27,663 nt of DNA from a virus, in IMG/VR virus record IMGVR_UViG_3300021960_000395, positions 1 to 27,663 of that record. One strand, written 5' to 3'. The notes under the pieces were generated by a model. It had not been told where the DNA came from. It did not search any database and saw only the letters and a list, made by a program, of their open reading frames with translations. Below are positions 25,093 through 26,896 of this stretch, piece after piece (the first letter of the stretch is position 1; every line of letters starts with the position of its first letter). The position numbers and the translations under genes were made by a program.

Positions 25093-25202
25093 TACGGGTC
25101 TTTTTACTGGTGTTAGCGGTGTTCGTCGGTATTGAACTGGCTCATACTGGCTATCACTGGGATAACTGTCCTAAACCTAGAATTTTTGACAGAAATTTGT
25201 AA
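25089..25202 (+). CDS. 37-residue membrane peptide
   Basis: A short ORF starting on the ATGA overlap with thyX: MIRVFLLVLAVFVGIELAH, then a hydrophilic tail with WDNCPKPRIFDRNL. The N-terminus is one hydrophobic helix (residues ~2-18) with an Arg at position 3, consistent with a small inner-membrane peptide or an uncleaved signal anchor. The coupled start argues that it is translated. Its last codons overlap a promoter-like sequence. No function can be assigned. Confidence 0.6.
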   Translation: MIRVFLLVLAVFVGIELAHTGYHWDNCPKPRIFDRNL

Positions 25203-25212
25203 ACCCATATAC
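25186..25212 (+). promoter_or_regulatory. Sigma70-like promoter, candidate early promoter
   Basis: A perfect -35 TTGACA (25186-25191) and a near-perfect -10 TATACT (25207-25212) are separated by 15 bases, shorter than the 17-base optimum. Using TTTGAC from 25185 makes it 16. Transcription would start near 25219, at the foot of a hairpin. It lies downstream of all late genes and before the early-type genes, where T7-like phages keep host-RNA-polymerase promoters. Confidence 0.65.
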
Positions 25213-25219
25213 TACGTGG

Positions 25220-25254
25220 TGGCACGGACGCTTCCCCCATAGGGGTACCCGTGT
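25220..25254 (+). other. Hairpin at predicted 5' end of early transcript
   Basis: GGCACGG (25220-25226) pairs with CCGTGTC (25248-25254) with one G-U pair, and inside it CCCC (25234-25237) pairs with GGGG (25241-25244) around a 3-base loop. It begins about eight bases after the promoter -10 box, so it could form as soon as transcription begins, protecting the 5' end or causing pausing. Confidence 0.55.
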
Positions 25255-25269
25255 CACGCGCAGGGATGC

Positions 25270-25391
25270 ACCGGTCCCCGCCAGTGCTCGCCCGTTGTAA
25301 CCCGTGCATAGCTGCGCGTAACCGGCGCTCAGCCGCGTCCTACCGGCTCCAAACCGGCTCAACACCGTGCCAAACCGGCTGCGGCAGCTGC
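25270..25391 (+). repeat. Degenerate ACCGGC motifs phased at ~10.5 bases
   Basis: ACCGGC occurs at 25321, 25342, 25353 and 25374, with ACCGGT at 25270 and weaker versions at 25290 (GCCCGT), 25300 (ACCCGT), 25331 (AGCCGC) and 25364 (ACCGTG). Successive spacings are 10-11 or about 21 bases, i.e. one or two DNA turns, so the motifs face the same side of the helix. This suggests a bending signal or cooperative protein-binding array. The weaker copies may be over-read. Confidence 0.55.
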
Positions 25392-25559
25392 ATTTCTGCC
25401 TATCTGTCGGCGTTCGATCAGTGTAATTTATGTCAACGATAAGCAACGGTTATAAGCCAGTCATACCAACGGATCTGACCCAGCCAATCACAGTGATAAG
25501 CAGATCTTATGGGGATTGCTGCCCCAAACCGCCTCGTGACGGTCTATCATGACTGAGAT

Positions 25560-25631
25560 GACTGATTGAAGGTCTTGATCTCGACTCTCCCTGTTAAGGG
25601 GGAGGAGAGTCTCGATCTTCAACCATCAGTC
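25560..25631 (+). other. Long interrupted hairpin in non-coding region
   Basis: GACTGAT (25560-25566) pairs with ATCAGTC (25625-25631). The core GATC-TC-GACTCTCC (25577-25590) pairs with GGAGAGTC-TC-GATC (25604-25617) with a 2x2 mismatch, around a 13-base loop that contains CTGTTAAGG. Between them TTGAAG and CTTCAA also match. Total span is 72 bases. It is much longer than an intrinsic terminator and has no T run; an RNase III site, packaging signal or structured RNA are options. Confidence 0.6.
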
Positions 25632-25915
25632 ACTCCCACCGAACCTTGACAACTGCATAAGCACACCGCTTCCAGAGCAACTGGTAGACAGCGACGACCG
25701 GCATGGGTTCTTGACCGGGAGGTGTGGTAGACACAGACAGCGGAGCCACACGCTTTGTTTGCTCATGGCACAGCGCAGCGCCTCCTGCGCCTTACAAGTA
25801 TGCTCAAGGCACACCACCTGCACCCTGCACCGACAGGCTGCCCGTTTGAGTCGGGCTGTACGGTCTTGCTGCTCCATCAAGGACGCAGCTCACTGTTCAC
25901 TTTACTTTGCTTCAC

Positions 25916-26146
25916 ATGTTCTTCAACATCCAACCTCGTACCTCTGACGCTGTTGCTTGCCTTCAGGTCTCGCCTGTCCTCGGCGTTGTCCTCGTTGAGT
26001 TTGCCAACGGTTACAGCTACGAATACACTGGCGTTAGCCGTCGTGCTATCGCTAACCTGATGCTCAACCCTAACATGAGCCTTGGGTTCTGGGTTAACCA
26101 GAACTGCATCCGCCCTGAGCGGACTGCCTGCCTGACCCTCGTCTGA
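25916..26146 (+). CDS. KTSC-domain-like small protein, first early gene
   Basis: A 76-residue protein beginning MFFNIQPRTSDAV. The core VVLVEFANGYSYEYTGVSRRAIANLMLNPNMSLGFWVN (given in part: VEFANGYSYEYTGV, residues ~27-40) follows the KTSC pattern: an isolated strand ending 'F.nG..Y.Y.gV', a helix with 'lm..p..S.G', then a final strand. KTSC domains occur in small phage and bacterial proteins, often with unknown role and sometimes linked to RNA/lysyl-tRNA synthetase-like contexts. A TTG at 25907 would add three residues; I prefer the ATG. GTTCACTT (25895-25902) precedes it by 13 bases and no Shine-Dalgarno sequence is present. Confidence 0.75.
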   Translation: MFFNIQPRTSDAVACLQVSPVLGVVLVEFANGYSYEYTGVSRRAIANLMLNPNMSLGFWVNQNCIRPERTACLTLV

Positions 26147-26173
26147 GTGTCTCGTTACACTCGACTGATGTAG

Positions 26174-26230
26174 GTTACACTGAGGGCATCCGTGCCCTCT
26201 CTGTAGCTGACATGCTACACATGTTCACTT
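26174..26230 (+). repeat. Early intergenic two-hairpin element, copy 1
   Basis: The layout is GTTACACT (26174-26181); hairpin 1 GAGGGCA/TGCCCTC (26182-26188/26193-26199, TCCG loop); hairpin 2 TGTAGC/GCTACA (26202-26207/26214-26219); GTTCACTT (26223-26230); and a start codon 14 bases later. A further GTTACACT lies 20 bases upstream (26154-26161). Copy 2 is at 26658-26719. Hairpin 1 differs in sequence but keeps its pairing between copies, which points to a functional RNA structure. Confidence 0.75.
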
Positions 26231-26244
26231 GCTTACATACACAC

Positions 26245-26655
26245 ATGACTGCAACTGTCTCCGCATCTGCCCAAGCTCGCTACGAGCTGTGGTACGACAG
26301 CAAGGACGCAGACACACAGGCTCTCATCGACGAGATCCACGAGTCCACCTCGTACATCATTGACGAGGATGAGTATGATGCATTCATCTCCATGCTTGAC
26401 GCTGACCTGAACATCACCACTGCTGAGCAGTTCTGTGAAGCATTCTCAGGTGAGTGGATGGGTGTCGGTGATAGCGTCACCAGTGAGTTCACCGAAGAAC
26501 TCATTGATGATTGCTACTCTCACGAGATTGCATCAATGCCTAGCTTCCTGCAGAATGCTATTGATTACCAACTCGTTTGGTATCAGTCAATGCGTTATGA
26601 CTACTACGATCTGGAGTTCAAAGGTAACACTTACTTCTTCAATCGTAACGTCTGA
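26245..26655 (+). CDS. ArdA-like antirestriction protein
   Basis: A 136-residue, strongly acidic protein, rich in Asp/Glu with few Lys. ArdA proteins mimic B-DNA and block type I restriction-modification enzymes. The C-terminal two-thirds fit the family: AEQFCEAFSGEWMGVGDSV, then 'TEELIDDCYSH', 'MPSFLQNAIDYQLVWYQSM' and a last strand 'LEFKGNTYFFNRN'. It is shorter than plasmid ArdA (~165), lacking much of the first domain. Start ATG 26245 was chosen because it follows the intergenic element; an ATG 33 bases upstream lies in its hairpin. Being an early gene it matches the role of T7 gene 0.3 (Ocr), also a DNA mimic. Strong, but by pattern only. Confidence 0.75.
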   Translation: MTATVSASAQARYELWYDSKDADTQALIDEIHESTSYIIDEDEYDAFISMLDADLNITTAEQFCEAFSGEWMGVGDSVTSEFTEELIDDCYSHEIASMPSFLQNAIDYQLVWYQSMRYDYYDLEFKGNTYFFNRNV

Positions 26656-26657
26656 TA

Positions 26658-26719
26658 GTTACACTTAGGCATCGCATCTTGCGTTGCTTTTCTGTAGCTC
26701 TCATGCTACGTGTTCACTT
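26658..26719 (+). repeat. Early intergenic two-hairpin element, copy 2
   Basis: The layout is GTTACACT (26658-26665); hairpin 1 GCATCGCA/TGCGTTGC (26669-26676/26680-26687, one mismatch, then TTTT); hairpin 2 TGTAGC/GCTACG (26693-26698/26705-26710); GTTCACTT (26712-26719); start codon 9 bases on. The TTTT after hairpin 1 could allow partial termination. Confidence 0.75.
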
Positions 26720-26728
26720 AAAACTAAC

Positions 26729-26896
26729 ATGGAGTATCAAATCAACTACACCAATGGGCGTGACATATGCGCCACTGAGTACATCACTGCACGTTCACAC
26801 ATGGAGGCATGGTCGAAGGGATCTGCCCAAGCACAAGGACGTGAGCGTGTACATAGTGTGTACCCAATGACTAACATTTTTAAGGAGTTTAACTAA
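26729..26896 (+). CDS. 55-residue hypothetical early protein
   Basis: A small ORF, MEYQINYTNGRDICATEYIT..., with no recognisable domain. I chose ATG 26729 because it follows copy 2 of the intergenic element by 9 bases; earlier in-frame starts lie within that element. The sequence is mixed charge and soluble, ending TNIFKEFN. Its stop overlaps the next start as TAATG. Small unique early proteins in T7-like phages often bind and redirect host enzymes; I can assign no function here. Confidence 0.65.
   Translation: MEYQINYTNGRDICATEYITARSHMEAWSKGSAQAQGRERVHSVYPMTNIFKEFN

Follow-up and report, generated by a model that had tools for sequence, protein, structure and literature searches.

What kind of RNA structure stands before the early genes of this virus, and what could it do for the early message? 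The window, that is the whole stretch of 27,663 nucleotides which we analysed, is part of a T7-like cyanophage. It carries structural genes, a terminase (22568) and ThyX (24451), followed by a long non-coding stretch (about 25200-25900) and then by the first early genes. These are, all on the plus strand, early gene 1 (25916-26146, 76 amino acids, weakly KTSC-like, below the Pfam cut-off), early gene 2 (26245-26655, 136 amino acids, without Pfam match) and early gene 3 (26729-26896, 55 amino acids). The nearest annotated relatives are S-RIP2/KBS-P-1A, S-CBP3, S-CBP4, S-TIP37, S-SBP1 and one uncultured phage. A preliminary description had proposed a repeated two-hairpin RNA element before two of the early genes, serving either translation control or RNA processing. 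The blocks on which this proposal was built are in place: GTTACACT at 26174-26181 and 26658-26665, CTGTAGCT-N2-CATGCTAC at 26201-26218 and 26692-26709, and GTTCACTT at 26223-26230, 26712-26719 and 25895-25902, thus 14, 9 and 13 bases before the ATGs at 26245, 26729 and 25916. Hairpin 1 indeed has different bases in the two copies and pairs in both, and hairpin 2 differs by the U-A to U-G change as described.

Both copies lie on the plus strand. Copy 1 is found between early genes 1 and 2 (26169-26219; 66.6 bits with the covariance model, folding energy -26.3 kcal/mol with the leader). Its strand 1 (GGUUACA, 26173-26179) pairs with 26202-26208 in the minimum-energy fold through covarying pairs, and the outer stem continues with UGU at 26169-26171. 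Then follow hairpin 1 (GAGGGCA-UCCG-UGCCCUC, 26182-26199), a stem of 7 bp whose sequence is fully variable among homologues while the pairing is kept, strand 2 (UGUAGCU, 26202-26208), which is common to both alternative folds, and strand 3 (GCUACA, 26214-26219). Strands 2 and 3 together make up hairpin 2, which is predicted to fold at the 5′ end of the downstream piece. The leader of early gene 2 (26220-26244) is poor in G and contains GTTCACTT. Copy 2 is located between early genes 2 and 3 (26653-26710; 45.6 bits with model R1 and 58.0 bits with model R2), and its first three bases are the TGA stop codon of gene 2. It consists of strand 1 (AGUUACA, 26657-26663), hairpin 1 (AGGCA.CGCA-UCU-UGCG.UGCUU, 26667-26689), strand 2 (UGUAGCU, 26693-26699) and strand 3 (GCUACG, 26705-26710). 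The element region had originally been drawn from 26154. The additional GTTACACT found there belongs to a different small hairpin (UGAGUGU-CUCGUU-ACACUCG; GAGTGTCTCGTTACACTC, 26144-26163) which is inserted upstream of copy 1. A similar hairpin is found downstream of hairpin 2 in the loci L010, L048 and L111, and the GAGTGTCTCGTTACACTC hairpin thus appears to be a movable add-on module.

We searched IMG/VR with the exact pattern GTTACACT-N(14-40)-CTGTAGC-N(4-12)-GCTAC and retrieved 114 stretches. About a dozen of the matches are chance occurrences in coding sequence, and such false positives (e.g. L016, L029, L040, L043, L070) were taken out by hand. Among the exact-pattern matches are about 129 clear copies of the element with 67 different hairpin 1 sequences, all but one of which fold well. 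The occurrence of the element is far beyond chance. The covariance model R1, built from 25 copies, scored about 180 strong matches when run on the fetched loci, among them diverged copies which the exact pattern had missed. In 20 records the model matches are grouped, one to three copies together, in about 1.2 kb of the early region; the remaining matches in these records stay in the noise, except for weak shadows on the reverse strand of the same places. In the window only the two copies described here rise above noise. In total the family comprises more than 100 viral contigs and several cultured cyanopodoviruses (S-RIP2/KBS-P-1A, S-CBP3, S-CBP4 and S-RIP1), with one to three copies per genome which are always situated between early genes, on the coding strand. 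KBS-P-1A has two copies, S-CBP4 three and S-CBP3 at least two when relatives are fetched by BLAST only and not by motif. The model search found no copy in P-SSP7, P-SSP2, P-GSP1, NATL1A-7, S-CBP1, S-CBP2 and S-CBP42, nor in P60, Syn5, S-B28, S-SBP1, S-TIP37, S-SRP01, T7 and others.

A stricter pattern matched only once in 84,980 bacterial and archaeal genomes, namely in Bradyrhizobium. We read this match, which scores 19 bits with R2, as chance and reject a host origin; thus, the element is a phage element. None of the 4227 families of Rfam 15 gave a credible covariance match, the fetched records of relatives carry no RNA feature at its place, and we found no description of it in published work on cyanophage RNase III, stem-loops and early genes. 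From its sequence the element therefore appears to be a small, previously undescribed RNA structure between the early genes of cyanobacterial viruses of marine and brackish hosts. Further copies and conservation of structure, looked for with the covariance model and in related phages, were both found, and the earlier proposal of an undescribed early-operon element which keeps its structure while its sequence changes is strongly supported.

The fold has to be revised, however. The main predicted fold is a single long interrupted hairpin whose strand 1 (GUUACA) and strand 2 (UGUAGC) pair with each other and enclose the variable hairpin 1. A small, pyrimidine-rich CU/UC internal loop joins the outer stem of about 10 bp to hairpin 1, and the resulting rod, an irregular hairpin, has on average 20.0 levels and 16.3 bp, or about two helical turns. 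In 86 of 89 distinct copies the long hairpin has the lower folding energy (mean -22.3 vs -18.0 kcal/mol for the two-hairpin fold), and it also wins in both window copies; in the uncut RNA its mean predicted probability is 0.86 as compared to 0.13. In an alignment of 118 distinct copies, which was fitted to the structure so that its counts lean towards that structure, 94.4% of the pairing cells hold a standard pair as against 75.6% after shuffling and 37.9-44.4% with the partner slid, and compensatory changes occur in 14 of the 17 pairs. Among these are pairs which only the long hairpin contains, such as columns 5-70 (GC 49, AU 37, UA 11, GU 9) and columns 3-72 (AU 84, UA 25). The same is seen when 25 copies are aligned with MAFFT (97.2% pairing vs 81.4%). 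The tandem two-hairpin arrangement is thus rejected as the main fold, being less stable in nearly all copies and missing the covarying outer stem. The long hairpin excludes hairpin 2, which survives as a conserved alternative.

This alternative arises since strand 3 (GCUAC) is complementary to strand 2. We distinguish seven classes of strand 2 (GUAGC, GUAGU, AUAGU, GUAGA, GCAGU, GUAGG and GAGGG), to which strands 1 and 3 are normally both matched. GCAGU is found in S-CBP3, GUAGG in S-RIP1, and GAGGG in the third copy of S-CBP3 as well as in L095, L255, L256 and L261; a few strand 3 partners match strand 2 through G-U wobble. The exact complement of its own strand 2 is present within 17 nucleotides in 102 of 112 distinct copies, compared to 72 on average and at most 80 in 2000 permutations, a test which was made on related copies and gives no clean probability. 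A search of IMG/VR for the three strands together recovered eight real elements of the GAUUACA class and six of the GAUUAUA class, all matched and none mismatched; the 29 mismatched stretches of the latter class are all non-elements without hairpin 1. Together, the three-way matching of the strands and the database search for triples argue for selection on the three-strand alternative fold. One position of strand 1 forms a U-G wobble in nearly all copies (112 of 118), while strand 3 usually offers a G-C pair there, as if strand 3 was meant to win once strand 1 is gone. For the isolated downstream piece of window copy 2, folding predicts a competing fold in place of hairpin 2, and a general detector for three-strand arrangements found no convincing analogue in T7 or in cyanopodoviruses without the element; both results speak against the processing role suggested below.

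Two variants may be mentioned here. In S-CBP3 (L002:3248-4023) the three copies belong to three different strand 2 classes (GCAGU, GUAGC and GAGGG), each matched to its own partners, which perhaps avoids cross-pairing between copies. In one copy, in L092 (3981-4045), the loop which separates strands 2 and 3 holds an additional hairpin, GACGGCGACTAGTCGTC, and strand 3 is kept after the insert.

We suggest that the element serves the early transcripts of cyanopodoviruses as an intercistronic mRNA-processing signal with the shape of the early RNase III sites of T7, a reading to which we assign a probability of about one half. In the uncut message strand 1 would pair with strand 2, and the outer stem would stack on hairpin 1 to give the rod of about 20 levels. 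An endonuclease of the host, with RNase III as the likeliest candidate, would then cut the internal loop on its 3′ side, directly behind hairpin 1, as in T7 R1.1. After the cut, hairpin 1 would cap the 3′ end of the upstream message, and the downstream message would begin 1-2 nucleotides before strand 2. Strand 2, freed of strand 1, could now pair with strand 3 to form a 5′-terminal stem-loop, followed by the G-poor leader and the start codon. In this way both new ends might be shielded from exonucleases and from 5′-end-dependent nucleases. The family, its location, the long and the alternative hairpin and the three-way matching of the strands follow from the sequences themselves; the cutting, the enzyme, the exact site and the protection by the caps are what we infer. 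For a piece starting at (C)UGUAGC, a 5′-end hairpin including strand 2 is predicted in 137 of 155 copies. Such a mechanism would explain the two partners of strand 2, the selection on an alternative hairpin which is a minority form before cutting, and the fact that hairpin 1 needs only pairing. We further propose, somewhat tentatively and just short of even odds, that this is a device which cuts and caps at once: one cleavage frees a strand to refold with a third one and places a stem-loop on both new mRNA ends, all in a compact module which is carried along with exchangeable early-gene cassettes.

The likeness to T7 is one of position and shape. The T7 (Autographiviridae) early sites R0.3, R0.5, R1, R1.1 and R1.3 share with the element the slot between early genes and the strand, and both are hairpins of about 20 levels in which a small internal loop separates the upper from the lower stem (PMC6121014). 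In our folding, R0.3 to R1.3 adopt structures similar to the rod of the element. The coordinates used for the five T7 sites all fall on the 3′ side of an upper stem, and the one for R1.1 agrees with the published single-cut hairpin of the early region. This hairpin, intergenic and 60 nt long, has a 4/5 internal loop and is cut once into pieces of 47 and 13 nt (PMC6121014, PMC4858673). In contrast to the T7 sites, the internal loop of the element is smaller and mostly symmetric, its third strand can replace strand 1 whereas none was detected in the T7 sites, and its cleavage is a proposal whereas the T7 sites are cleaved. Neither covariance model (R1 or R2) matches T7, but sequence similarity is not strictly required for RNase III sites. 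Cyanobacteria have RNase III enzymes, and two of these from PCC 7002 cleave many E. coli RNase III substrates (PMC10989914). The sequence core of the element is, however, far more conserved than RNase III requires, which counts against this enzyme; the core may be specifically recognized by another protein.

With three-strand attenuators and the expression platforms of riboswitches, the element has in common that one strand has two exclusive partners and that covariation maintains both pairings. Unlike these, it has no U-tract terminator, and neither sequestration of a start site nor a ligand-binding core was seen. Stem-loops at the 5′ end, of the ompA type, stabilize bacterial mRNAs. They share with the element a 5′-terminal hairpin, predicted here at 1-2 nucleotides from the proposed end, and the unstructured leader behind it. 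The 5′ hairpin of the element differs in that it would form only once the competing strand is removed, and its stabilizing effect is putative. Intercistronic processing hairpins are of a known kind; within our sources, neither this family nor its three-strand design had been described before.

A switch which works without cutting appears unlikely. Here the ribosome finishing the upstream gene would cover strand 1, strands 2 and 3 would pair, and the stability or translation of the next gene would change. The ability of strand 2 to pair with either partner suits this idea, as does the upstream stop codon. In 72 of 157 copies this codon coincides exactly with columns 1-3, the base of the rod, so that a terminating ribosome would cover strand 1, and in about two thirds it lies within a few bases of there. 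In about one third of the copies, including window copy 1, the stop is too far upstream for this, and an obligatory version of the switch is weakened. In addition, the start region is equally open in both folds (mean accessibility 0.65 vs 0.63 in 100 copies), and no terminator follows the element; a search for intrinsic terminators or attenuators (GC-rich stem and U-run) gave no terminator-like site on the plus strand, and in many copies hairpin 1 is followed by CUCU. The equal accessibility also rejects a translational switch that hides the start codon. The next ATG usually comes 18-28 nucleotides after strand 3, and the leader in between is merely poor in G (10.7% vs 21.7% upstream). GTTCACTT, which had been counted as part of the element, occurs in only 28 of 153 leaders and is not a conserved signal; it does precede early gene 1, where there is no element. 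The lack of a Shine-Dalgarno sequence before the three early genes is not special either, as only 5 of 19 other window genes have a similar 4-mer. On both counts, the equal openness of the start region and the lack of conservation of GTTCACTT, translation control is unlikely. Of the two roles originally considered, RNA processing seems to be the better one.

Processing could also be brought about by a single-strand nuclease, RNase E or J, which cuts the short linker between hairpins 1 and 2 in the two-hairpin fold. This linker is rich in U and C, and host RNase E rises during infection of Prochlorococcus by P-SSP7 (PMC9692554). The fold in question is, however, the predicted minority form (mean 0.13 vs 0.86), and the covariation of the outer stem would be left unexplained. 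We regard such a site as rather improbable.

Still less probable is that the element is a passive cap or a recombination joint, with repeats that mark the boundaries of exchanged early-gene cassettes and a structure that stabilizes RNA ends made elsewhere. Where two copies are similar upstream (at least 75%), their downstream sequences are unrelated in 96 pairs and similar in 81; where they are similar downstream, their upstream sequences are unrelated in 161 pairs and similar in 81. These pair counts, which cover junctions with the element, suggest that neighbouring early genes are exchanged across the element. But exchange alone leaves the three-strand covariation and the orientation unexplained, and hairpin 1 differs between copies, which lowers the homology.

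A DNA element, be it a protein site, a promoter or a terminator, could account for short invariant blocks such as GTTACACT but is highly improbable, as there is no promoter or terminator consensus at the element, hairpin 1 keeps pairing and not sequence, and G-U pairs are used throughout.

Further structures are found near the early genes. In sister phages without the element, a second, unrelated RNA family occupies the same early intergenic slots (L005:926-977, L005:1320-1370, L004:984-1035, L004:1437-1488, L003:3602-3653 and L003:3996-4046; further IMG/VR loci are e.g. L158, L161, L183 and L210). It is a compact three-way junction of an outer stem, a small hairpin and a hairpin resembling a tRNA T-arm with the loop UGCRANN. 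Compensatory changes occur in 10 of 13 predicted pairs (23 sequences), there is no Rfam match, and the family is also present in contigs of at least 60 kb. It may be a tRNA-mimic processing signal. In the window, a T-arm-like hairpin, GCCCGTTTGAGTCGGGC, lies upstream of early gene 1 (25840-25856). It is present in S-TIP37, and KBS-P-1A and S-SBP1 have other T-arm-like hairpins at the matching slot; ARAGORN detected no tRNA. At the start of the non-coding stretch lies TTGACA-N16-TATACT (25186-25213), which has 11 of 12 matches to the sigma-70 promoter and is a candidate for a host-type early promoter. A long near-perfect hairpin within this stretch (25559-25632) is highly similar in S-SBP1 and may be part of a terminal repeat or of concatemer processing.

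The processing and protection of early messages are hardly known in T7-like cyanophages, and the literature centres on host RNase E and antisense RNA. The element offers a defined RNA family with strong covariation and a predicted cut site and refolding, and it is present in cultured phages whose hosts are available. It also provides a marker by which the exchangeable early-gene cassettes can be recognized in these viruses. If the proposed mechanism is right, one cleavage can make two protected mRNA ends, and this would be a compact design for the engineering of cyanobacterial operons.
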